Shown here: piece after piece, positions 38 to 60,711 of the stretch
How positions within the stretch are numbered: the first letter of the stretch is position 1
Layout of the letters: the number at the start of each line of letters is the position of its first letter
Source of the DNA: Halopiger aswanensis
GTDB lineage: Archaea > Halobacteriota > Halobacteria > Halobacteriales > Natrialbaceae
Length of the DNA: 64,000 nt
Direction: 5' to 3'
Assembly (NCBI RefSeq): GCF_003610195.1
Contig: NZ_RAPO01000002.1
Coordinates: 434,001 to 498,000 of the forward strand
Made by a program: the position numbers and the translations under genes
The notes under the pieces: generated by a model
The model's database searches: none
What the model was told of the DNA's origin: nothing
What the model saw: only the letters and a program-made list of their open reading frames with translations

Positions 38-637
38 TCAGCGCCCCGTATCGTACTTGTACGTCGTCGACTCCGGATCGATCCCGAAGTCCTCCGGCGT
101 CTCCGTGTTCGAAACTTCGTCGCGGCCCTCCGGGGCCCGCTTGAACGCCTCGCGGAGCCGCTCGGGCATCCGGAATCGGTCCACCTCGAGCGCGTAGGGG
201 ACCGCCTCGGGGTCGACGCCGTCGCGCTTCTCCGAGAGTCGGTCCTGCAGCGGTCCCGGTAACTTCGATTCGTCGATCCGCCGGAAGCCGAACTGCGCGA
301 GGTAGGCACCCTCGCCCGTCAGCGCGTAGACGGTGTCGAACCCCTGATCGCCGGCGTACTCGACGAGCCGTTCGACGACGTGGGCGCCGACGCCCTGGCC
401 GCGCCACTCCTCGAGGACGCCGATGCTGGTCAGTTCGCAGACCTCGTCGGGTTCGTCCTCGCGCTCGCTGTCGGTCTTGTGAATCCGGATTCGGCCGAAG
501 CCGGCCTTCTCGTCGGATACCTCGTCGACGGCGAGGACGTAATCGCGCGAGCGGAACGCCGTCTCGTCGAGCCCCATCGACTCGATGTGGTCGAGCAGCC
601 AGACTTCCTCCCTGTTTTTCGCGTCCCGCACGTACAT
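38..637 (-). CDS. GNAT-family N-acetyltransferase
   Basis: Predicted 199-aa acetyl-CoA dependent N-acetyltransferase; substrate unknown. The middle of the protein carries the GNAT core: the strand with ELTSIGVLEEWRGQGVG, whose RGQGVG is the acetyl-CoA pyrophosphate loop (Q/RxxGxG/A), followed by the helix HVVERLVEYAGDQGF and a YLAQFGFRRID segment typical of GNAT strand 6-7. I chose the ATG at 637; the frame stays open for nine more codons to a TTG, but that start has nothing to recommend it. The roughly 60-residue C-terminal tail is acidic and unlike the GNAT core. It stands alone, divergent from the zinc protein gene to its right. Family call is firm, the substrate is not inferable. Confidence 0.85.
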   Translation of the reverse strand: MYVRDAKNREEVWLLDHIESMGLDETAFRSRDYVLAVDEVSDEKAGFGRIRIHKTDSEREDEPDEVCELTSIGVLEEWRGQGVGAHVVERLVEYAGDQGFDTVYALTGEGAYLAQFGFRRIDESKLPGPLQDRLSEKRDGVDPEAVPYALEVDRFRMPERLREAFKRAPEGRDEVSNTETPEDFGIDPESTTYKYDTGR

Positions 638-857
638 GCCGCCACGTAGGTCGCGTACGGCCAAAAGCGTTTGTGGGTTGCCACAATTTCGGGCCGCGGG
701 TCTGTCCCGTCGGATCGATCCGCGCGTCTCGAGTGGGTTCTCGCCGCAGCTCTCTGTCGGGATTCACCGCGCAACTCACAGCTGCTGATCGTTTGTCCAC
801 TAGCGGCGGGATTTAGTCGAGTAGAAGCACGACAATTGCACAGTTTGAGACCATACG

Positions 858-872
858 GGCAAACTATTTGCC
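858..872. promoter_or_regulatory. Inverted repeat, candidate operator
   Basis: GGCAAACTATTTGCC is a perfect inverted repeat with 6-bp arms and a 3-bp centre, ending 25 bp before the ATG of the zinc protein gene. That is where a haloarchaeal TATA/BRE region or an operator overlapping it would sit. No cognate regulator is identified. Confidence 0.4.
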
Positions 873-897
873 ACTTCGTGGTAGTGGTTATCACACT

Positions 898-1149
898 ATG
901 GCCGAATGCGACCGCTGCGGCGACGAGGTACCGCGCCTGTTCGAACACCACACTCGCACCGAAACCATGACGCACCGCCGAACGCGACGCGTCTGCGCGG
1001 ACTGCCACCCATCGGTTTCGAACGCGTCTCGGATTCCCGTTCCGGATGGCGGTATCCGTGGCGCGATCTGCCCGACGTGTTCCGGCGCTACCATCGAGCA
1101 CGACGGCGTCTACACCTGCCTCGAGTGTGGTTGGACGGGCTCGAGCTGA
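898..1149 (+). CDS. Small zinc-ribbon protein with four CxxC motifs
   Basis: An 83-aa protein with four CxxC pairs: CDRC at residues 4-7, CADC in the middle, then CPTC and CLEC near the C-terminus. The last two form a classical zinc ribbon ending CLECGWTGSS; the first two probably bind a second zinc. Proteins of this size and pattern are common in haloarchaea and generally lack assigned function; RNA, DNA or protein binding are all possible. The ATG at 898 places CDRC at the very N-terminus and is preferred over an in-frame codon at 868. A perfect 15-bp inverted repeat lies just upstream. Convergent with the M48 protease gene to its right. Confidence 0.75.
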   Translation: MAECDRCGDEVPRLFEHHTRTETMTHRRTRRVCADCHPSVSNASRIPVPDGGIRGAICPTCSGATIEHDGVYTCLECGWTGSS

Positions 1150-46506: not shown

Positions 46507-46626
46507 GAACCATTATATCCGACGCGTCAATATATCGGTTAATGAGTAGTTACAGAGCGGCGAATCGAGGAGACTGGTTAGAGAGATGTCATTTAATCCA
46601 GTCGAGTGAGATTGGTTGGTGGAACG

Positions 46627-48213
46627 ATGACTAGTCGAAAGCACGGAGCGGTGTTGATAGTCGTCTTCCTCACTGTTGCCGGGATGGGGCTCCCAACGAT
46701 TGTCAGTGCGGCCGAAGTCGGCGAGCCGAACCTTTCGGTGTACGCACCGGACAATGAGATTCAACCCGGAACCGAGAACAGTATCAATCTCAAGATCAAG
46801 AACGATGCGGAACTGAAAGCCGGAAGTGACTCCCGGATGCTGACGGCGAACGGCGTCACCGTCGAACTCGAGGATACCGGGCCGTTCGAGGCAAAATCAG
46901 CTGAAACGCCGGTTGGGCCGATACAAGACGGCCAGCTGGTCGAGGTCCCACAGCGGATCGAAGTGCCGGATGACGTCGAACCCGGAAAGTACGAGGTGAC
47001 GGTCCGAGTTCGGTACTCACACTGGAACCGGATTTCCGATCTAGAGCGACAGACAGAGAGCAAAAAGTACGATGTCACGCTCGTTGTGCCCGACGAACCG
47101 CGCTTCGACGTGGCTACCGTCAAAAGCGATGTCGAACCCGGAGCGAGCGGCGAGGCGACGATCGAAATCACCAACACGGGAACCGAACGAGCGAACGAGA
47201 CTCGAGCGACCATTTCCGGCGGCACCGGCGTCACGGTCGACGGCGCGACCGCCGAGGCGCCAGCACAGGAAGCGATCGGCGACCTCGAACCGGGTGAGAC
47301 GACGACGACGACGATCGACGTCACGCTCGCCAAGTCGATAAGCGTCGGCGAGAAGCCGATCGAAGTCGGCTTCACGTACCGCGATACTGCGGGTATCGAA
47401 CGAGAAGCTCCCGTTGAGATCACCACCCTCACTCCGGCTCCCGAACAGTCCTTCTCGATTGCTACCCTCGAGGACACCCTCTCGGTCGGGTACGAGGGCG
47501 AAATCTCGGGCGAGATCACCAACGACGGGCCGCGATCGATCGACGACGCCGTACTGGTCGTCGAACCGATGAGCGAATCGCTGTTCATCGAGGACACTCG
47601 CTACGCTCTTCCGACGCTCAAGCCCGGTGAAACGGCGTCGTTCCGGTATCCGACTGACGTCAGCGGTCAGGCTGATGCCGGGCCTCGACAGCTCCAGTTC
47701 TCCGTCGAGTACACCGGGCCGAGCGGCGAGGCAACCCTTTCCGACGGACCGATGAGCAAGCGCGTCGTCGTCGACGAACGTCAGGACGAGTTTTCGATCG
47801 CTGACGATGGTGTTACCGTCCAGCAGGGGAAAACCACCGAGTTTGCACTCACGATCACCAACGAACGCGACCAGACGCTGTCGAACATCGACGCTCGACT
47901 GTACGCTGACAGTCCGCTCTCGACGAACAACGACGAGGCGTTCGTCCCCGAACTCGAGCCCGGCGAGTCCGCCGAGATCACCTTCGATATTTCGGCGAGC
48001 AGCGCCGCTGCGACCGAACTGCATCCAGTCGAACTCGACTTCGAGTACGAGACCGAACGCGGCGAGTCGACGCTCTCGGACGTTTATCAGCACCCGATCG
48101 AGGTCGTCCCCGCCGAGTCTGACGGCGGCGGATTCCTCGGATCGCTCGCCCCCGCGATGTTCGGCCTAACGATCGTCGGCCTCGGCGGCGTCGCGTGGTG
48201 GCGTCGGACGTGA
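46627..48213 (+). CDS. Secreted CARDB/COG1361-type repeat protein, module 2
   Basis: A 528-aa paralogue of the protein at 42259-43887. It has a signal peptide (KHGAVLIVVFLTVAGMGLPTIVSA), several CARDB-like beta repeats (ENSINLKIKNDAELKAGSD, SGEATIEITNTGTERANE, KTTEFALTITNERDQTLSNIDA), and a C-terminal transmembrane helix (LAPAMFGLTIVGLGGVAWW) followed by RRT. Shared blocks with module 1 include an NDEAFVPELEPGESAEITF stretch matching DDEAFVKELEPGETATMTF. The ATG at 46627 has GGTTGGTGG just before it and is preferred over the GTG at 46606. The RND gene follows after 9 bp. Same inferred role as in module 1. Confidence 0.85.
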   Translation: MTSRKHGAVLIVVFLTVAGMGLPTIVSAAEVGEPNLSVYAPDNEIQPGTENSINLKIKNDAELKAGSDSRMLTANGVTVELEDTGPFEAKSAETPVGPIQDGQLVEVPQRIEVPDDVEPGKYEVTVRVRYSHWNRISDLERQTESKKYDVTLVVPDEPRFDVATVKSDVEPGASGEATIEITNTGTERANETRATISGGTGVTVDGATAEAPAQEAIGDLEPGETTTTTIDVTLAKSISVGEKPIEVGFTYRDTAGIEREAPVEITTLTPAPEQSFSIATLEDTLSVGYEGEISGEITNDGPRSIDDAVLVVEPMSESLFIEDTRYALPTLKPGETASFRYPTDVSGQADAGPRQLQFSVEYTGPSGEATLSDGPMSKRVVVDERQDEFSIADDGVTVQQGKTTEFALTITNERDQTLSNIDARLYADSPLSTNNDEAFVPELEPGESAEITFDISASSAAATELHPVELDFEYETERGESTLSDVYQHPIEVVPAESDGGGFLGSLAPAMFGLTIVGLGGVAWWRRT

Positions 48214-48222
48214 TCACGACCG

Positions 48223-50883
48223 ATGACTGACGACGGCACCGCCGACGAGTCCGACCCGCGTCGCGCCGAAGAGCGTTCGAACGACGCGGACGGGAGTGGC
48301 ATCTTCGGCCTCGATTTCGATCTTGATCTCGGCTTCGGAGGCGATGCTGAGACCGACGACGGAACCAGTCGCTTCCGCGGCGACCGCGCGGACGATACCG
48401 ACGGGGAACTGGGCGACGACCCGTTCACGCGCCGGGTCAACCCGCTGATCACGAACCGACCCTGGACCGTCGTGATCGCCTTCCTGCTGGTGACGGCCCT
48501 CTTCCTCGGCGGCGCCGCCGCGGGCGGCGGCGGACAGGAAGCCGGTACCGACCAGTTTACCGAGGACACCGAGGCCCAGGAGGCCTACGAGAACATGCAG
48601 GAGGACTTCAATCGCGGTAGCCGCGATTCCGGGGGCACGACCGCGCAGTTGTTTCTCACGGCCGACCGCAACGCGATCTCGAAACCGAACCTGGTGCGGC
48701 TGCTCGAGTTCCAGGATCGGATCGAGAACGACGCCGGTCTGCGGGTCGCGTCGTCGACCAGTCCGGCCTCACTGATCGCGACCCAACTCGATCCCGAGGC
48801 GACGACCCGCGAGGAACAACGTCGGGCCGTCGAACGGGCCTCCGAACGGCAACTCGAGGAGGCAGTTGCAACGGCCGACGAAACGATGGGGCTGCCGGTG
48901 AGTACCGACTTTACGCGCGAATCGGCGGCCGCTGACGTCGCGCAAGTGGCGATCACGTACGATACGCCGTCGAACGCGGATACCGACGATCACGCAGCGC
49001 TTATCCGCGAGACGGAAGCCGTCGCGAACGAGATCGACGGCTTCGATTCGGACGACAACATCGTCGTCTTCGGTAGCGCCATCACCGAGCAGGAGACGCT
49101 GCAGTTGCTCGGCGACACGGCGATCGTCGTCTTCCCGGCGGCGCTGATTCTCATTCTACTATTTTTGATCATCGCCTACCGGGATCCGATCGACCTCACC
49201 CTCGGGCTCGTCGCGCTCCTCATGTCGATGATCTGGACGTTCGGCTTCATGGGATTTGCGGGAATTCCCTTCTCCGACTCGCTACTGACCGTCTTCCCCT
49301 TACTGCTAGCAGTGGGGATCGACTTCGGGATCCACATCATCAACCGCTACCGCGAGGAGCGGTCGACGGGCGCACCGATCGGTGACGCGATGGGCATCAC
49401 GACCCGTCAGCTCACGACCGCGCTGTTGATCGTCACCCTCACGACGGTCTTCGGCTTCGCGGCGAACCTGACCAGCGAGATGACCCAGGACTTCGGGATC
49501 GTCGCCGCGGCCGGGATCAGCTTCACGTTCCTCATCTTCGGGGTCTTCCTCCCTGCGGGGAAGGTCGGGCTCGACCGGCTTCGCGAGGGAACGCGGTTCC
49601 CGTCGTTCGGAACCGAGCCGCTGGGGAGCGAGGAGTCGCGGCTCGGACGGGTGCTCCCCGTCGGCGTGCACATTGCACGCGTCATCCCCGTCGTCTTCCT
49701 CGTTGCGATGCTCGTGTTCGGAGCCGGCGCCGCCGCGTACGGAACCGGTGTCAGCACGCAGTTCGATCAGGAGGCGTTCTTCCCCGACGAGAATCGCCTC
49801 GAGCAGTACGAGTCTCTGCCCGGGCCGCTCGCTCCGTCGGAGTATACCTTCATCACTGTCCTCGACATCATGGAGGAAGACTTCGATCAGGGGATGCAAG
49901 GCTCGGTGACGATTTACGTCGATGATCCGGCGTTGCGTGACGACGGCGCGCTCAGAGAAATCGACCGCACGCTCGAGAAGCCGCCGGACGCATTCAAGAC
50001 GGACGGCCGCCAGGCCGACGCGACCAGCATCCTCGACGTGATCGACGAGCAGGCCGCGGCGAACCCGGAGTTTGCAGGGACGGTCAAGCGGTACGATAGC
50101 ACTGGCGACGGAGTTCCGGATCGAGACGTCGACGCAGTCTACGACAAGATGTTCGCCGTCGCCGAGGACGAGACGGCCAATCGCCTGACCACCGACCGCA
50201 GCGCGACGCGGATCGACATTCAGGTTGAGGCCGACGCCGAGCAGGCGGAAGCCGTCGCTGCCGCACGCGAGGTCGCCGACCGCATGGGAATGGACGCGAC
50301 CGCGACCGGCCAACTGGTTATCTTCGAAAGCGTCGTCGAGAAGATCGGCGACTCGGCGATCACTAGCCTCTTCGTTGCATTCCTGCTGACGATCGTCCTG
50401 CTCGTCCTCTCGTACTGGTGGCTCGAGGGGCGAGCGATCTACGGCGTGATTAACCTCGTACCGGTGTTGCTGGCCGTCGCGATGCTCGCGGGCTCGATGC
50501 GGTACTTCGACGTGCCGTTGAGCCCGATCAACGCGCCGATCCTCTCGGTTTCGATCGGGTTGGGCGTCGACTACACGGTGCACCTCATGCATCGGTTCGT
50601 CGACGAGTACGAGGAACGGGGCGACGTCGACGAGGCGCTGATGGTGACCGTCCGCGGAACCGGCGGTGCCCTCACCGGGAGCATGCTCACGACCGTCTGC
50701 GGGCTCGGTGTGCTGTACTTCGCGCTGATCCCGCTGATCATGGAGTTCGGTCTCCTGCTGGCGCTAGGAGTCTTCTACTCCTGGCTCACCTCCATCATCG
50801 TGCTTCCCTCGGTGATCGTCGTCTGGGACCGCCTCGAGGCAAAGTACGGAAGGCTTTCGATCGGGCGGCTCGTCCCCGAATAA
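48223..50883 (+). CDS. RND/MMPL-family exporter, module 2
   Basis: An 886-aa paralogue of the exporter at 43888-46365. It carries an extra acidic N-terminus of about 75 residues (SNDADGSGIFGLDFDLDLGFGG...) before segment 1 (WTVVIAFLLVTALFLGGAAAG). Matching core blocks are FLIIAYRDPIDLTLGLVALL, VGIDFGIHIINRYREE and LSVSIGLGVDYTVHLMHRFVDEY. It has 12 predicted transmembrane segments in two halves, and would function with the module 2 CARDB-like protein. The acidic N-tail is cytoplasmic by topology and could be regulatory. The origin-like region begins 92 bp beyond its stop. Confidence 0.92.
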   Translation: MTDDGTADESDPRRAEERSNDADGSGIFGLDFDLDLGFGGDAETDDGTSRFRGDRADDTDGELGDDPFTRRVNPLITNRPWTVVIAFLLVTALFLGGAAAGGGGQEAGTDQFTEDTEAQEAYENMQEDFNRGSRDSGGTTAQLFLTADRNAISKPNLVRLLEFQDRIENDAGLRVASSTSPASLIATQLDPEATTREEQRRAVERASERQLEEAVATADETMGLPVSTDFTRESAAADVAQVAITYDTPSNADTDDHAALIRETEAVANEIDGFDSDDNIVVFGSAITEQETLQLLGDTAIVVFPAALILILLFLIIAYRDPIDLTLGLVALLMSMIWTFGFMGFAGIPFSDSLLTVFPLLLAVGIDFGIHIINRYREERSTGAPIGDAMGITTRQLTTALLIVTLTTVFGFAANLTSEMTQDFGIVAAAGISFTFLIFGVFLPAGKVGLDRLREGTRFPSFGTEPLGSEESRLGRVLPVGVHIARVIPVVFLVAMLVFGAGAAAYGTGVSTQFDQEAFFPDENRLEQYESLPGPLAPSEYTFITVLDIMEEDFDQGMQGSVTIYVDDPALRDDGALREIDRTLEKPPDAFKTDGRQADATSILDVIDEQAAANPEFAGTVKRYDSTGDGVPDRDVDAVYDKMFAVAEDETANRLTTDRSATRIDIQVEADAEQAEAVAAAREVADRMGMDATATGQLVIFESVVEKIGDSAITSLFVAFLLTIVLLVLSYWWLEGRAIYGVINLVPVLLAVAMLAGSMRYFDVPLSPINAPILSVSIGLGVDYTVHLMHRFVDEYEERGDVDEALMVTVRGTGGALTGSMLTTVCGLGVLYFALIPLIMEFGLLLALGVFYSWLTSIIVLPSVIVVWDRLEAKYGRLSIGRLVPE

Positions 50884-50977: not shown

Positions 50978-50994
50978 AGTAGATTTCGTGTGCT
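50978..50994 (+). repeat. ORB-like element 1
   Basis: AGTAGATTTCGTGTGCT, preceded by GGTGGG. Identical to elements 2, 3 and (inverted) 4. Flanking GGGAG...CTCCC also makes the ends of this copy symmetric. Confidence 0.85.
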
Positions 50995-51119: not shown

Positions 51120-51136
51120 AGTAGATTTCGTGTGCT
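51120..51136 (+). repeat. ORB-like element 2
   Basis: AGTAGATTTCGTGTGCT, preceded by GTGGGAG. Exact match to element 1 over 17 bp; 142 bp downstream of it in the same orientation. Confidence 0.85.
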
Positions 51137-51303: not shown

Positions 51304-51320
51304 AGTAGATTTCGTGTGCT
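51304..51320 (+). repeat. ORB-like element 3
   Basis: AGTAGATTTCGTGTGCT, preceded by GACGGAG. The copy sits between inverted arms ACGGAG (51298-51303) and CTCCGT (51319-51324). 132 bp before the orc1 ATG. Confidence 0.85.
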
Positions 51321-51451: not shown

Positions 51452-52648
51452 ATGTCTGGACCGTTTAGCGATCTTACGGACACTCTCTTTGCCGATAAGT
51501 CGGTCCTCAGTGAGAGCTATCAGCCCGAGGAGATCCTCGAGCGCGACGAGGAAATCGAGGCGTTCAGTCACGCGCTCCAGGACGTCCTCTTCGGTCGCGA
51601 ACCCGAGAACATCTTCCTCTACGGGAAAGCCGGCCTCGGAAAGACGGCCGTCACGAAGTATATGATGGGCGAACTGCAGTCAGAAGTCGTCGAACGGGAG
51701 GCGGCGGACGACCTTCACGTTCACGAGATCAACTGCAACGGAAAGACGCTGTTCATGGTCGTCCGGCGGCTCGTCAACGAGTTATTACCCGCCGACGCGA
51801 GTCAGTTTCCGAAACGCGGGCTCGGGACCGGCGACGCCTTCGACGAACTCTACGCGCAACTCGATCGGATCGGCGGCACGCACCTGATCGTCTTCGACGA
51901 GATCGACCACCTCGACGACGTCGATACGTTGCTCTACGAACTGCCGCGGGCGCGGTCGAACGGCCACATTACGGAGTCGCTGGTCGGGATCATCGGCATC
52001 AGCAACAACTACACGTTCCGACAGTCGCTGTCGGCGAAGGTCAAGGATACCCTCATGGAGACCGAGATTTCGTTCAGTCCCTACGATGCCGGCGAACTCC
52101 GGACGATTCTCCACGATCGCGCCGAGCGGGCGTTCGTCGACGGCGCCTGCGACGAATCCGCGATCGCGAAGGCGGCGGCGCTTTCGGCACAGGACATGGG
52201 GAACGCTCGCCAGGCGATCGACCTCCTCCGCGTCGGTGCCGAGGTCGCCGAACGCGAGGGCGACGAGACTGTCACCGACGACCACATCGAGGACGCGCGC
52301 ACCCTCGTCCAGCGTGGCCGACTGCGAAACAAGATCCGCGACCAGACCGAACACGCCCAGTACATCCTCGAGACGATCGCGAAACTCGAGGAACGGAACG
52401 AGGTACCGGCCCGCTCGAAGGAGATCCAGGAGGGGTACGAGCGGGTCGCCGAAGCCTACGGCGCGACGCCGTTGACGACGCTAAAGAGCATTCAGGACCA
52501 CCTTTCCGATCTGCACATGTTGGGGTTCCTCGTACGTCACGAGCGCAACAAGGGACTCAGCGGCGGCCAGTACTACGAGTACGAACTGGATCTGGATCCG
52601 ATGATCGTCCTCGAGACGAGAGAGGAGATCGTACAGGCGGCCGACTGA
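51452..52648 (+). CDS. orc1: Orc1/Cdc6 replication initiator
   Basis: A 398-aa AAA+ initiator. Walker A is YGKAGLGKTAV, Walker B LIVFDEIDHLDD, sensor 1 IIGISNN, and the sensor 2 region is DMGNARQAIDLLRVGAEVAEREG; the C-terminal winged helix (about residues 300-398) contains EIQEGYERVAEAYGATPLTTLKSIQDHLSDLHMLGF. It binds origin repeats, melts DNA and loads MCM. The gene stands between arrays of identical 17-bp elements pointing toward it from both sides, so it is probably the cognate initiator of this origin. Haloarchaea carry several orc genes; which family this is would need comparison. ATG at 51452. Confidence 0.95.
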   Translation: MSGPFSDLTDTLFADKSVLSESYQPEEILERDEEIEAFSHALQDVLFGREPENIFLYGKAGLGKTAVTKYMMGELQSEVVEREAADDLHVHEINCNGKTLFMVVRRLVNELLPADASQFPKRGLGTGDAFDELYAQLDRIGGTHLIVFDEIDHLDDVDTLLYELPRARSNGHITESLVGIIGISNNYTFRQSLSAKVKDTLMETEISFSPYDAGELRTILHDRAERAFVDGACDESAIAKAAALSAQDMGNARQAIDLLRVGAEVAEREGDETVTDDHIEDARTLVQRGRLRNKIRDQTEHAQYILETIAKLEERNEVPARSKEIQEGYERVAEAYGATPLTTLKSIQDHLSDLHMLGFLVRHERNKGLSGGQYYEYELDLDPMIVLETREEIVQAAD

Positions 52649-52763: not shown

Positions 52764-52780
52764 AGCACACGAAATCTACT
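52764..52780 (-). repeat. ORB-like element 4 (inverted)
   Basis: AGCACACGAAATCTACT on the plus strand, the exact reverse complement of elements 1-3. The G-rich flank is retained on the minus strand (GGGAGGG). Confidence 0.85.
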
Positions 52781-52843: not shown

Positions 52844-52860
52844 AGCACACGAAATGTACT
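52844..52860 (-). repeat. ORB-like element 5 (inverted, one mismatch)
   Basis: AGCACACGAAATGTACT on the plus strand; differs from element 4 at one base. The minus-strand G-rich flank (AAGGGAG) is kept. Confidence 0.8.
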
Positions 52861-53007
52861 CTCCCTTCCTTCGTATCACCGGACTACGAGGCCCAGCACG
52901 CGTCGAGACCATCGGTACGGGCGTGATTCGAGGTGTGACGCGAATCGATCGACGCAGTTCGCATAAGCAGTCCATTATTATGGCCGTTCGGGGAGTTCGA
53001 GACGGAT

Positions 53008-55998
53008 ATGTCAGTCCCGCGCTCCGTCCGTCGATGTTGCCGACGGGAGCCGTCCGACGCTGGCGGACGGTCCGCAGCGTCGACGAAAGCGACCTTCGGG
53101 CCCACCGTGCGATGCGTGTCTGCCGGACAACGGTCCGAACGCGGCACGTGGGCCGGTCTCGGTTTGGGTCCGGGTCTCCTGTACGGCGGCCTCGCAACCG
53201 GGACTCTCGGGCAGATTCAGTGGGGCGAACGCGGTCTCGAGTTATCTCCCGGCGCCGCCGTCGTGATCGGCCTCGTGCTGTTCGCCGGCGTTGGCGCGGC
53301 CGTGCTCTCCCTCACGAGACGGAACAGGCAATTCGAGGAGAGCGACGGTGATCGACTCGAGTCCGAAACCGAGGCCGAGACCGATCCTCCGGCGGTGCTC
53401 ACCGGTGACGCGATCGAAGGAACGCAGGTCGCGCTCCGGCGCGACGACGGCGACTGGCAGTGGCGCGTGCTTCGCCGCGAGGCGCTCGCCGAGAGTCCCA
53501 CACGGGCTTCGACGCAGTCGACGGCGACGGACCGAATCGAACGGACGCGAGACGCGATCGATACTGCCGGGCTCCGGGAAGTAACCGACGCTGCAGTGCG
53601 CGTCTATCGCGACGAGGACGGGATATGGCGATGGACGCTCGTCCGTGCGGACGGCAGCCGCGTTGCCACCGCAGCCGAGGGCTACGACGACCGCGAGAGC
53701 GCTGAAGCGGCAGTGAGTCTCGTCAAAGACTGCGGCCCCGAAGCCGACGTCGTCGATATCGAGGCGGCGGCGATTACGATCGCCACGCACCACGATCGAT
53801 GGCAGTGGCAACTGGTCGACGACGAGCGAAGGCCGCTGGCCACCGGCGCAGACGAGTACGAACGGCGCGCCGACGCCGTAGCTGCCGCCGATACGTTCGT
53901 CGATCGGATCTCGGACGCACGCGTCCTCGACATCGACGCGTTCGGCGTCGAACTCTACGAGACCGGAGCCGTTGTGTCGGGATCAGAGTCGAAATCCGAG
54001 TCCGACGAAGAGTCGGAAGCCGAACCGGGAGAGGAGGAGGAGGACGGCACGTGGGCCTGGCGGCTCGTCGATGAGAACAGCGATATCATCGCCGACGCAC
54101 CCACGACTTTCGAGACTCGACCAGCCGCCGAAGATGCCGCGACGGCGGCGCTCGCGGCCCTCGAGGACGCTGCGGTCACCGACGCGGGAGACCCTGCGTT
54201 CGAACGGTATCCCGATCCCAATATCGACAGTACCGGTGGCGCTGATGCCGGTAGTGACGGCGATGGCTGGCGCTGGCGACTCGTCGACGATGCCGGCCGA
54301 ACCGTCGCTCGAGCGCCGAGGACCGCGTCGACGGCCGACGGGGCCGAACGAGCCACCGAACTGATCCGCGAGGCGGCGCCCGATGCGCCCGTGCTCGAGA
54401 TCGACGAGGCGGCGTACGAGGTGTATGCCGACCCCGATGCCGCGCCGGAAGACGACTCCGTTGCGGACCGCACGAAGGTGGACGCGGATGACGACTCGAG
54501 CAGTGGCGAAAGCGACGCGGCCGAGGAGGCTACCGCCGTCACCGACGGCTCGGGAACCGAGCCGGTCGATGAGGGGTGGCGCTGGCGGCTCGTCACGACC
54601 GAGCGCGATGTCGTTGCCGAGGGCGCGGCGTCATACGGCGACGCGGGGACAGCGACGACGGCGCTCGAGCGAATCCGCGAGGACGCCCGCGAGGCCGACG
54701 TCCTCGCGTTCGAGACGGCCGCATTCCGCGTTTACGAGAACGACGGCGACTGGCGCTGGCGACTGCTCGACGAGGGCGGGACCGTCCTCGCCGACAGCGA
54801 CGGTGAGCACGACTCCCGCAACGAGGCCATCGAGGCGATGCTGACGCTCAAGGAGCGCGCGCCCGACGCCGACGTGGTGGAAATCGATGCGCCCGAATTC
54901 GAACTGGTCGCCGAGGGCGACGGCGAGGGTGACGGCGACGGCGAGGACGCGGAGGGCTGGTCCTGGCGATTGATCGACGCCGCCGGGCGCCGCGTCGCGA
55001 CGGCGCCGACGACCTACGCGAGTCGAGCGGACGCTCGAGCGGCGGTAGATCGCTTCCGGGAGCAGTCGAACGGTTCCATCCACACGGTCGAGAGCGCGAC
55101 GTTCCAGCCCTCCGCGACGGACGATGCGTGGCGCTGGCGACTGATCCGCCCGTCGGGCGAGACGCTGGCGGTCTCCGGAAGCGAGTACGCGACGCGAGAC
55201 GAACTCGACGACCGGATCGACGACGTGCGGGAGACGGCGGCCGCCGCTCGGGCGTATACGACGGGCGCAGTAACGATCCAACTCGTCGGCAGCGAGACCT
55301 GGCGCTGGCGGCTGCTCGATCGCGAGCGCGAGCCGATCCTCGAGTCGACGACGGCCTATCCCAGCCGAGCGGCAGCCCGGGACGCCGTCGACGATCTCGA
55401 GCAGGCCTCGACGTCGGACGTTCCGATCTTCGCGATCGACGCCGGAGCAGCCGCGGTCTGGCTCGAGCAGGCTGCGGACGGCTGGCGCTGGGACCTGATC
55501 GATCGCGACCGGACGGTCCTCGCGACCGCGGCCGACGCGGCCGACAAATCCGGTGCGACGGCGGCCGTCGACGACGTCCAGCGGCTGGCGCCCCTCGCCG
55601 AGCGGATCGACGTCACCGAGGCGTCGTTCGACATCGTCGAGCGAGACGGCGGCTGGCGCTGGCGGCTCCTCGACGATGACGGCCATCCCGTCGCGATCGG
55701 CGAGGAGGCGACGGCGACGAAAGCGGCTGCGCACGAGGCGATCGACGACGTTCGGTCGCTCCTCGAGGTGGCCAGCGTCTTCGAACTCGAGGGGACCGCG
55801 TTCGAACGGTATCGGACGGACGGGGATGCGGACGCGGACGGCGACGACGAGAACCCGTGGCAGTGGCGACTCGTCGACGGGAACGGTGAGACGTTGCTCG
55901 AGAGCACACAGGCCTACGAAACCCGGGAAGCGACACAAGATGCAATTGCCGCGCTGCAATCGCACGCCACCGACGGCGAGTTGACGGTCGCCGAGTGA
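53008..55998 (+). CDS. Giant multi-repeat YegP/HVO_2922-like (DUF1508) protein
   Basis: A 996-aa protein built of about 13 repeats of 65-80 residues. Each repeat has a WxWRL strand and a following 'D..g..lA....Y..r..A..A' helix block, as in DUF1508/YegP/HVO_2922 small proteins. WxWxL-like motifs are GDWQWRVL, GIWRWTLV, DRWQWQLV, GTWAWRLV, DGWRWRLV, EGWRWRLV, GDWRWRLL, EGWSWRLI, DAWRWRLI, ETWRWRLL, DGWRWDLI, GGWRWRLL and NPWQWRLV. Residues about 50-105 include two hydrophobic segments (LGPGLLYGGLATGTL and AAVVIGLVLFAGVGAAVLSL), so it is probably membrane-anchored. Function is unknown. A TATA-like CCATTATTA and the lack of a leader support ATG 53008, although the Arg-rich first 45 residues make the start uncertain. 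Confidence 0.85.
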   Translation: MSVPRSVRRCCRREPSDAGGRSAASTKATFGPTVRCVSAGQRSERGTWAGLGLGPGLLYGGLATGTLGQIQWGERGLELSPGAAVVIGLVLFAGVGAAVLSLTRRNRQFEESDGDRLESETEAETDPPAVLTGDAIEGTQVALRRDDGDWQWRVLRREALAESPTRASTQSTATDRIERTRDAIDTAGLREVTDAAVRVYRDEDGIWRWTLVRADGSRVATAAEGYDDRESAEAAVSLVKDCGPEADVVDIEAAAITIATHHDRWQWQLVDDERRPLATGADEYERRADAVAAADTFVDRISDARVLDIDAFGVELYETGAVVSGSESKSESDEESEAEPGEEEEDGTWAWRLVDENSDIIADAPTTFETRPAAEDAATAALAALEDAAVTDAGDPAFERYPDPNIDSTGGADAGSDGDGWRWRLVDDAGRTVARAPRTASTADGAERATELIREAAPDAPVLEIDEAAYEVYADPDAAPEDDSVADRTKVDADDDSSSGESDAAEEATAVTDGSGTEPVDEGWRWRLVTTERDVVAEGAASYGDAGTATTALERIREDAREADVLAFETAAFRVYENDGDWRWRLLDEGGTVLADSDGEHDSRNEAIEAMLTLKERAPDADVVEIDAPEFELVAEGDGEGDGDGEDAEGWSWRLIDAAGRRVATAPTTYASRADARAAVDRFREQSNGSIHTVESATFQPSATDDAWRWRLIRPSGETLAVSGSEYATRDELDDRIDDVRETAAAARAYTTGAVTIQLVGSETWRWRLLDREREPILESTTAYPSRAAARDAVDDLEQASTSDVPIFAIDAGAAAVWLEQAADGWRWDLIDRDRTVLATAADAADKSGATAAVDDVQRLAPLAERIDVTEASFDIVERDGGWRWRLLDDDGHPVAIGEEATATKAAAHEAIDDVRSLLEVASVFELEGTAFERYRTDGDADADGDDENPWQWRLVDGNGETLLESTQAYETREATQDAIAALQSHATDGELTVAE

Positions 55999-58239: not shown

Positions 58240-59091
58240 CTACTCGACGGTCAGCCACGGGACCTCCATGAGCGGCGGGATGTAGGTCTCGATGTGGTGT
58301 TCCCAGACCCCCTCCTCCCCGAAGGCCTCGCCGTGGTCGGCCGTGACGACGACCGTCCCGTCGAGTTCCTCGACCAACTCGGCGACCGACTCGAGGGCGA
58401 TCCGCAGATTCTCCTCGTAAAGCGCCATCGCGGCCTCGCGCGTCCCGCTCTGGACGAGGTCCTTGGGATCGAGCTCGAGCCACAGGCCCGCTTTCTGGGC
58501 GATCTCCTTGCCGTCGAGGGCGGATTCAATTTTCGGTCGGACGGCGTCGCCCAGCGAAGCGAGCACGCCGTCGTCCTCATCGTCGCTCTCGCCCTGCTTT
58601 TTGATCCCCTTCTGGATCTGCTCGAGCTTCTGGCCCTTTCCGCGTGCGAGGTAGGGCGCGTGGGGCTGCATGTAGTGGAGCACCGTCCGATCGGCTTCCT
58701 CGACGAGGTCGCGGTGCTGATCGAACGACTCCGCGAGGCTGTCCGGCGGGACCGTCCCGAGGTCGTCGTCCCAGCCGTGATCCCAGACGTCGACGACCTC
58801 GCTGATGTGGTCGCCGGCAGTCCATTCGTAATCACAACTGGCACCCCACTTGAGTTCGTTCAGCGGGATCCCGAGGTCGTTGATAAACGGGTTCCCGGAG
58901 AAGTACGCGATATCGTGATCACCCGTGAAGGTGCGGTACGCCCACTCCGGTGTCGACGACCCCTTACTCCGTCGTTTTTCGAGCGAGCCGTCGAGGAACT
59001 CGTCGTAGATGTCGCTGAACACGTCGTACCGGCACGCGTCCAGGACCAGACAGTAGTCCCACTCGGACTCGAGAAACCGCTGGGCTTTCAT
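58240..59091 (-). CDS. AlkP-superfamily (sulfatase-like) hydrolase
   Basis: A 283-aa alkaline phosphatase/sulfatase superfamily protein. VLDACRYDVFSDIYDEF near the N-terminus gives the metal and nucleophile region, LHYMQPHAPYLARGKG the second motif, and VVVTADHGEAFGEEG the DHG metal-binding motif. Members of this haloarchaeal group sit in surface glycan clusters and may cleave or transfer phosphate or sulfate esters. It is shorter than full sulfatases. It has no signal peptide, so it may act inside the cell. First gene of the three-gene minus-strand operon, with a TATA-like AGTAAAGATATGGG upstream. Confidence 0.85.
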   Translation of the reverse strand: MKAQRFLESEWDYCLVLDACRYDVFSDIYDEFLDGSLEKRRSKGSSTPEWAYRTFTGDHDIAYFSGNPFINDLGIPLNELKWGASCDYEWTAGDHISEVVDVWDHGWDDDLGTVPPDSLAESFDQHRDLVEEADRTVLHYMQPHAPYLARGKGQKLEQIQKGIKKQGESDDEDDGVLASLGDAVRPKIESALDGKEIAQKAGLWLELDPKDLVQSGTREAAMALYEENLRIALESVAELVEELDGTVVVTADHGEAFGEEGVWEHHIETYIPPLMEVPWLTVE

Positions 59092-59475: not shown

Positions 59476-60711
59476 ATCGAACGACAGACGCTGATCGCAC
59501 TCCTCGCGGTTGCCGTCGTTCTCGTCGGGCTCGGACTCGGGCTCGGCTCGACCGGCGCCGCGTCGTCCGACAGCCCCGCCGCGGACGTCGAACCGATGGT
59601 GGCACCCGACGACGATTCCGTGCTGTGGCCGTACACGAGCAAGGCGCCGGCGTTCGAGGAGCGGACGCTGCCGCTCAACGTTTTGATCGAGGGCCATCCG
59701 GAAGAGACGCGCCGCCAGTTCCTCGAGCAGGGGCAGGGAACGTGGAACGAAACGACCCCTGAACAGGAGGATCTCACCGAGGGAGAGGCCGACGAGCGCG
59801 CCGCGCAGACGACCGCGTGGCGGAGCGCCGACGGCTCGACGCGGTACACGTACGTCGCCGAGAACGGGTCGGCCGGCGGGCTGTGGCTCGACGAGCACTA
59901 CCAGCTCCACGACGGCGAGTATCTCGGCTCGCGCCACCACATTCGGGCGTACGCGTCGCCCGACGACGGCGACGAGTGGACGGCGATTCAGGCCCACAGC
60001 GAACACTGGGACTGGTTTCGGCTGAGCCACACGGTCGACAGCGTCGAGCGGTCCCAACGCTACGTCGAACGCGAGTTCATGAGCCGCGACACGGCGGGCG
60101 TCACGCGCGTCCACCTGGGCAACGATCACGGCTCCGACGCCAACGGGTGGGTGACGACCGTGGGCTTCGAGGACGGGGTGCCGGTTCACTTCGCCGCTCT
60201 CGCGCTGGTTCCGGGCGCGATCCTCACGCGTCGAACGTCGGCGCTGCGACCGATCCGCGACGCGGTCAGCGCGCGACTCGCTCGAGCAATTGCGTTAGCG
60301 GGATCGCTGCTCGGGCTCTACCTCTCAGTTCGGTTCGGGGCGATCGCCGCCGAGACGCGAACCCCGCATCTCGATCCGCGCCTCATCGCGGGTGCGTTCT
60401 ACCCGCTCATCGCGATCGGATTGCCCTGCTGTACGTACTATCTGTCCCGATCGCTGGATCGGACGACGGCCTTTACCGCCACCGCGGTCGGGTTTTCGCT
60501 CGCGATCCTCCTCGATTACACGCTGTTGGGCGTCACGCGGCTGCCGCTCAACGTCTTCGTTCACCGGTTCTCGACGGCGATCGCGCTCGGATTCGTCGCC
60601 GTCGGGGCGTCCCACACGGTCCGCATCGATCCGGAAGATCACGACTATCTCCGGCTCGGCGTGCTCCTCTGGACCGTGACGTTACTCGTTCCGCTGCTTC
60701 GATTCCTGTGA
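59476..60711 (+). CDS. Membrane protein with large outer domain, AUC (non-canonical) start
   Basis: A 411-aa protein if read from the ATC at 59476; 371 aa if the first ATG (59596) is used. From ATC the N-terminus is a clean signal-anchor (IERQTLIALLAVAVVLVGLGL) followed by GSTGAASSDSP, whereas the ATG start would remove it and leave a soluble start. The middle 200 residues are polar and extracytoplasmic; five to six transmembrane segments follow from about residue 245. I do not recognise the family. A perfect GAGGTGATC at 59463-59471 sits 4 nt before ATC. Either this gene starts at AUC, or the base is an error or mutation of ATG. Confidence 0.7.
   Translation: MERQTLIALLAVAVVLVGLGLGLGSTGAASSDSPAADVEPMVAPDDDSVLWPYTSKAPAFEERTLPLNVLIEGHPEETRRQFLEQGQGTWNETTPEQEDLTEGEADERAAQTTAWRSADGSTRYTYVAENGSAGGLWLDEHYQLHDGEYLGSRHHIRAYASPDDGDEWTAIQAHSEHWDWFRLSHTVDSVERSQRYVEREFMSRDTAGVTRVHLGNDHGSDANGWVTTVGFEDGVPVHFAALALVPGAILTRRTSALRPIRDAVSARLARAIALAGSLLGLYLSVRFGAIAAETRTPHLDPRLIAGAFYPLIAIGLPCCTYYLSRSLDRTTAFTATAVGFSLAILLDYTLLGVTRLPLNVFVHRFSTAIALGFVAVGASHTVRIDPEDHDYLRLGVLLWTVTLLVPLLRFL

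Follow-up and report, generated by a model that had tools for sequence, protein, structure and literature searches.

The stretch of DNA analysed here (the window: 64,000 nucleotides of Halopiger aswanensis contig NZ_RAPO01000002.1, positions 434,001 to 498,000, numbered below from its first letter) contains an orc1/cdc6 gene and, downstream of it, an open reading frame (ORF) of 996 aa at 53008-55998 on the forward strand, the product of which has an isoelectric point of 4.2. An earlier note, made from the letters alone, took this protein (P0001) for a string, possibly membrane-tethered, of about 13 repeats resembling DUF1508, an uncharacterised domain of bacteria and archaea. Both domain and count are borne out: the protein scores 267.9 bits against the Pfam DUF1508/UPF0339 profile (PF07411), far above the gathering cut-off of 22, which 11 stretches exceed on their own, the motif WxWx[LV] occurs 13 times, and a hidden Markov model (HMM) built from the family's own units finds 13 units of 36.6 to 79.0 bits. 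A chance ORF is ruled out by the profile score, the conservation and the selection described below, and because the family-tuned HMM recovers the 13 units at such scores. The NCBIfam model for HVO_2922 (NF041908) is also exceeded (224.9 bits, summed over the repeats, against a cut-off of 90), and NCBI would probably name the product an HVO_2922 family protein on that score; NF041908 describes a small protein of about one 54-residue unit, however, and the window protein is a multi-domain relative, not the HVO_2922 equivalog. Its sequence relatives in the PDB are 6q2z (HVO_2922), 3bid (E 0.039) and 2k7i (E 0.75). A match to FtsQ_DivIB_C stays below threshold (19.8 bits; cut-off 21).

The gene is under purifying selection, with a ratio of nonsynonymous to synonymous substitution rates (dN/dS) of 0.281 against its same-genus orthologue. 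Between the same two congeneric genomes the ratio is 0.029 for orc1, 0.1 for a neighbouring glycosyltransferase and 0.09 for P0002, a second long array of the same genome (contig C1, a frame of 995 aa) that represents the main form of the family; the window gene, a paralog, evolves faster than this main form. Along the chain, residues 48-110, the transmembrane region, have a dN/dS of 0.10, and residues 1-47 one of 1.48, with no amino-acid constraint seen. This unconstrained segment raised the question of a start downstream of 53008, which was rejected in view of the recurrence of a similar start and a TATA-like box in relatives. The box, ATTATTAT at 52974-52981, lies about 30 nt 5' of the ATG at 53008 and supports a start there; a like box at like spacing, read by eye, is present in 7/7 paralogs compared. 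Its position is consistent with a promoter giving a leaderless transcript. The features of the gene, with their evidence, are:

53008..55998, +, array gene, 996 aa (ORF, Pfam, motif count)
52974..52981, +, ATTATTAT, TATA-like box about 30 nt upstream of the ATG (by-eye comparison with paralogs)
53008..53247, +, aa 1-80: MSVPRSVRR-type start, variable low-confidence tail, weak hydrophobic stretch at aa 49-67
53248..53325, +, aa 81-106: predicted transmembrane helix (AlphaFold2 (AF2) helix, Kyte-Doolittle hydropathy 2.56 at 84-102, dN/dS 0.10)
53326..53418, +, aa 107-137: flexible acidic tether (low predicted local distance difference test (pLDDT) at 106-129 and 131-135; 11 Asp/Glu in 31 residues)
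53419..53583, +, unit 1, predicted partner unit 13 (AF2, HMM; pairing from structure alignment)
53587..53760, +, unit 2, predicted partner unit 12 (best Pfam stretch 202-250; YegP pair match 190..931)
53764..53934, +, unit 3, predicted partner unit 11 (AF2, structure alignment, HMM)
53935..54186, +, unit 4, acidic insertion in the beta1-beta2 turn, predicted partner unit 10 (without a direct alignment row)
54187..54402, +, unit 5, acidic insertion, predicted partner unit 9 (AF2, fragment alignment, HMM)
54403..54711, +, unit 6, 47-residue acidic insertion, predicted partner unit 8 (AF2, alignment, HMM)
54715..54885, +, unit 7, predicted unpaired tip, the family's most conserved unit (unit comparisons, HMM)
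54889..55089, +, unit 8, short acidic insertion (AF2, HMM)
55093..55260, +, unit 9 (AF2, fragment alignment, HMM)
55264..55422, +, unit 10 (AF2, HMM)
55447..55614, +, unit 11 (AF2, HMM)
55618..55788, +, unit 12 (AF2, structure alignment, HMM)
55792..55992, +, unit 13, acidic insertion (AF2, HMM)

Anchor, unit register and family

The membrane tether proposed earlier is supported by one strong hydrophobic stretch (aa 84-102), placed by the AF2 model in a helix spanning residues 81-106. Of the two hydrophobic segments that the earlier note described, only this one is strong, the other (aa 49-67) reaching a hydropathy of 1.02. Positive residues beside the helix suggest that the array lies on the cytoplasmic side. 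The acidic linkers that the same note placed between the repeats proved to be mostly mislocated: in the AF2 model five of the acidic stretches (aa 320-347, 404-419, 476-522, 637-649 and 937-950) are insertions in the beta1-beta2 turn inside units 4, 5, 6, 8 and 13. The main form P0002 is anchored differently, by an N-terminal DUF7139 domain (PF23600, 133.5 bits) with four hydrophobic segments. The window protein does not match PF23600 at E up to 1 and has a single strong transmembrane segment; the alignment suggests that the paralog retains only the last part of the membrane head. DUF7139 itself occurs in 280/292 Halobacteria genomes, with one to six matches each.

The array is not singular, as the earlier description might have led one to think; it is a common haloarchaeal protein. 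DUF1508 is present in 20/21 genomes (H. aswanensis and 20 relatives), many with frames of about 935-995 aa, and 14 long array proteins align over their full length. Matches to the window protein at E up to 1e-100 are found in 87 of 125 Natrialbaceae genomes (38 lack one); over the class Halobacteria, a family profile matches 37/145 genomes at 1e-60 and 103/391 at 1e-100 (288 lack one), and a scan of named genomes returned 58 array loci, 55 of them haloarchaeal. In a quick tree the window protein falls in a 7-row paralog clade (support 100 in the Shimodaira-Hasegawa-like approximate likelihood ratio test, with warnings of long branches and unlike composition in those rows); with more genomes added, the clade comprises 16 Natrialbaceae rows (FastTree support 1.0). 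The paralog clades are nested among main-type rows, as common descent with the main form would have it. A main-type array at G089:C51:27698-30686 runs over two overlapping frames, likely through a frameshift or an assembly error. The H. aswanensis genome also encodes, on contig C3, a protein with a single C-terminal DUF1508 unit (L014 5092-5856), a possible soluble partner.

The number of units is nearly invariant. The count was made after removal of the short arrays L019, L035 and L036 and of rows that were duplicates over the region compared; it gave exactly 13 units in 110 of 113 distinct proteins. The exceptions are L091 (11 units), which runs to the end of its contig, L071 (12), truncated where the fetched stretch ends, and L093 (9). 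Moreover, the units correspond one to one: across 48 rows the best match of a unit was the same-numbered unit in 24385/28584 comparisons, against an expectation of about 1 in 13, and for the window protein alone in 490/603. The units were therefore duplicated before the array family spread through these haloarchaeal families, in line with the earlier suggestion that the repeats are ancient. Unit 7 stands apart. Its mean pairwise identity over 110 proteins is 0.75, against 0.41-0.60 for the other units; with an HMM made from nine single-domain haloarchaeal units, of which two are identical, it scores 58.6 bits, the next best unit reaching 37.7; and it is the unit nearest to single-domain proteins in 105/110 arrays.

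Predicted fold and pairing of the units

The AF2 model of the window protein (48 alignment rows) has a mean pLDDT of 82.0 and a predicted template modelling score (pTM) of 0.66, with 609/996 residues at pLDDT 90 or more. In secondary structure its repeats take the beta-beta-beta-alpha fold of the solved DUF1508 members, and structure alignment agrees; a different fold, which would have undone the assignment, was not seen. Foldseek recovers YegP, SO3888 and HVO_2922 at probability 1.00, with modest E-values (2.0e-3 to 7.6e-3). Beta-propellers (TolB, WD40 and others) ranked higher, with TM-scores of about 0.04 to 0.15, and were set aside as repeat artefacts. VIA-align superposes HVO_2922 (6q2z) on unit 3 alone (Z 8.1, 59 residues, 2.2 A). 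The two-unit proteins align otherwise: the match to YegP (2k8e; Z 15.4, 115 residues, 3.2 A) runs over model range 190..931 and that to SO3888 (2k49; Z 15.0, 113 residues, 2.3 A) over 194..933. A body of 115 residues that spans 190 to 931 must be built of distant pieces, and we read these as units 2 and 12. When units 4-10 (aa 303-812) were modelled alone (mean pLDDT 86.3, pTM 0.81), the fragment aligned with 2k8e (Z 15.5, 113 residues, 2.6 A) over 90..453, that is, window protein residues 392..755, or units 5 and 9, and with 2k49 (Z 15.0) over 92..471, the end of which reaches unit 10. The unit numbers of both strong pairs, 2 with 12 and 5 with 9, sum to 14. Weaker rows of the whole model (Z 2.5 to 3.4) span 187..987 (units 1/13), 304..858 (3/11), 460..742 (5/9) and 562..687 (6/8). 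The packing of two units as one YegP-like pseudo-dimer is a feature of the predicted models. On these models we favour, with some reserve, a chain that folds back as a hairpin, unit i against unit 14-i, and leaves unit 7 unpaired. The conservation of unit 7 is a sequence signal independent of this hairpin.

Several observations weigh against the hairpin, or against a special place for its middle unit. The pairing is read from the first and last aligned residues of structure alignments, which are not a contact map; only pairs 2-12 and 5-9 rest on strong alignments, and among the whole-model rows none supports pair 4-10. One row spans units 7-9 (568..742, Z 4.2, rmsd 10.0) and does not fit a hairpin, and the two AF2 models share alignment rows and so are not fully independent. 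Coevolution fails as proof of the pairing. With 82 rows, 10 of the 50 pairs highest in mutual information lay on the i/14-i diagonal, against 4.8 expected, with the full alphabet and 6 with a reduced one; with 113 rows the excess is absent at the top 25, 50 and 100 pairs, and region tests gave p values of 0.029 and 0.046 among nine, uncorrected, a weak signal. In the window protein itself, unit 2 (49.1 bits) exceeds unit 7 (42.1 bits) as the most single-domain-like unit, and the prediction that the middle unit would be the most single-domain-like in five-unit proteins failed in three such proteins.

Gene neighbourhoods and alternative readings

The neighbours of the array gene that bear on its interpretation, not part of the array itself, are the orc1 gene and a set of repeats resembling origin recognition boxes (ORB):

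51452..52648, +, orc1/cdc6 neighbour (TIGR02928, 406 bits)
50979..50994, +, ORB-like repeat
51121..51136, +, ORB-like repeat
51305..51320, +, ORB-like repeat
52764..52779, -, ORB-like repeat, inverted, between orc1 and the array
52844..52859, -, ORB-like repeat, inverted, 1 mismatch

The repeats point inwards on both flanks of orc1, three upstream and two inverted downstream, and each of the 9 loci scanned shows both flanks. Origins next to orc/cdc6 genes are well documented in haloarchaea (PMC3528665). For H. aswanensis, then, the earlier placement of the array beside the origin is correct. The array begins some 360 bp after orc1, the gap holding ORB-like repeats, and the same arrangement occurs in six genomes of three genera (G000, G001, G094, G096, G108 and G109), from which one might suppose that the array protein fastens Orc1 or the neighbouring origin to the membrane. 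We consider such a function highly improbable. This Orc1 (E up to 1e-120) is found in 16/125 Natrialbaceae genomes; adjacency was checked in 12 of them (all but G026, G027, G037 and G130), and in six of these the array is not beside Orc1. Conversely, nine other paralog loci (L144-L151 and L153, the last cut by a contig end) are without this Orc1, so that the tie to orc1 is not constant. The six linked copies all belong to a single subclade of 7 rows (support 0.997); one event thus explains the linkage, which we take as a neighbourhood inherited within that subclade and not as evidence of a role in replication; an origin-linked function was for this reason dropped as the principal reading. In Halobiforma haloterrestris (G094; L075/L156) the orc1 gene beside the array carries an in-frame TAG and the array is open, and G095 keeps much of that neighbourhood without this orc1. 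Upstream of orc1 the window encodes a NEW3/CARDB-domain protein and an MMPL transporter (46606-50883), also kept in L023, L154 and L155.

The main-type genes have other neighbours, and these invite a role of the family in coenzyme A (CoA) synthesis, for example in holding pantoate kinase and phosphopantothenate synthetase (PPS) at the membrane, the window paralog being a detached copy. The 56 main-type loci compared are those left after removal of 5 duplicates, 7 paralogs and the short arrays. A same-strand pantoate-kinase-like GHMP gene lies upstream in 44 of them, PPS lies downstream in 44, both are present in 39 and neither in 7; L013 7145-10120 is an example between the two genes, and the gap to PPS is under 200 bp in most loci. 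At 177.9 against a cut-off of 380, the kinase falls short of the NCBIfam pantoate-kinase model, hence "like"; PPS (4-phosphopantoate-beta-alanine ligase) scores above its own (316.1 against 300). CoA is essential, however, and the array is absent at E 1e-100 from the 38 Natrialbaceae and 288 Halobacteria genomes counted above; neither gene is found at any of 7 paralog loci, and the 7 main-type loci with neither include L091, which has no room on either side. We find this role rather improbable. For the paralog, work with cell-surface sugar enzymes encoded nearby might be suggested: genes for a sugar nucleotidyltransferase, an epimerase, GlmS or a glycosyltransferase are found within about 7 kb at 10/14 of its loci, against 0/48 main-type loci. 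The probes were picked after inspection from the window, L148 and L151 loci, and L023 is the window's orthologue; without these four the count is 6/10, the loci are related by descent, L145, L146, L154 and L155 have no sugar genes, and the genome of H. aswanensis holds 7 NTP_transferase and 33 Epimerase matches in all. The sugar neighbourhood is a lead only, and the role itself is improbable. In L148, L149, L150 and L151 the paralog has a sugar nucleotidyltransferase-like gene nearby; downstream of two glycosyltransferase genes, the window further encodes a weakly sulfatase-like protein (58243-59091; 20.3 bits, cut-off 25) and a protein that matches no Pfam family (59596-60708). Finally, the units could be beads on a string, or be paired sequentially, each unit or neighbouring pair binding a peptide or protein with avidity as the point. 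The aromatic motif is conserved in nearly all units and the acidic insertions form flexible loops, both in favour of such an array. Avidity arrays usually vary in length, however, and here the count is fixed at 13 in 110/113 proteins, the units are not equivalent, and both AF2 models place YegP-like pairs between distant units; we hold this reading to be unlikely. The earlier note envisaged a scaffold or a binding array; since the units are unequal and specific to their positions, we think a structural rod likelier than an array of equivalent binding sites.

A candidate rod and its relatives

The explanation that we prefer, and hold tentatively, is a membrane-anchored cytoplasmic scaffold in which 13 DUF1508 units form a folded-back rod with unit 7 as a docking tip. 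The architecture is moderately supported; the function we infer. The N-terminal helix is predicted to hold the array in the membrane, and unit i would pack on unit 14-i as the halves of YegP do. The result would be a rod of six pairs that has both its ends close to the membrane, with unit 7 left without a partner at the distant tip. Unit 7 is proposed to dock because it keeps the sequence of free-standing DUF1508 proteins; it may do so in trans through the DUF1508 dimer face, on unit 7 of another array or on a soluble single-domain DUF1508 protein, and membrane sites would thereby be linked, or the partner recruited. Given the hairpin, we judge the case for docking to be evenly balanced, and docking stays a proposal. 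The window gene would be a faster-evolving Natrialbaceae paralog in which a simple anchor replaces the four-segment DUF7139 head.

Possibly, although we would not press the point, this is a new architecture: a counted, odd-numbered hairpin in which every unit but the middle one is partnered within the chain, so that one dimerisation face is presented at the tip of a rod. If the hairpin is true, the near-invariant 13 would follow, since one unit must stay unpaired and the reach must be fixed, and a homodimeric domain would have a simple route to becoming a rod of defined length that docks at one tip. In any event, the fixed count, the positional units and the conserved central unit offer a direct way to ask what the pairing face of DUF1508 does. 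A description of tandem DUF1508 arrays was not found in the open-access PubMed Central literature.

Among known systems, YegP of E. coli (2k8e) and SO3888 of Shewanella (2k49) share with the array the two-unit fold that superposes on model pairs 2/12 and 5/9; unlike the array, they are small, consist of two adjacent units and have no anchor. HVO_2922 of Haloferax volcanii (6q2z, NF041908) has the same domain and aligns with single array units, but is one unit of 60 aa, reportedly a soluble dimer. One study (PMC12175516) lists it, as a putative YegP protein, with the DNA-repair genes that perchlorate induces. The five-unit DUF1508 proteins of haloarchaea (L035, L036 and L037) likewise carry several tandem units, and L035 and L036 start with a YGYW membrane segment that resembles, by eye, that of the main form; they differ from the array in number and in that their end units, not the middle one, are the most single-domain-like. 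The closest system is the main-type DUF7139-DUF1508 array itself (P0002), which has 13 DUF1508 units in equal order and a membrane anchor. It differs from the window protein in sequence (about 45% identity), in its four-segment head, in its lower dN/dS and in its loci, which, unlike that of the window, usually adjoin CoA genes.

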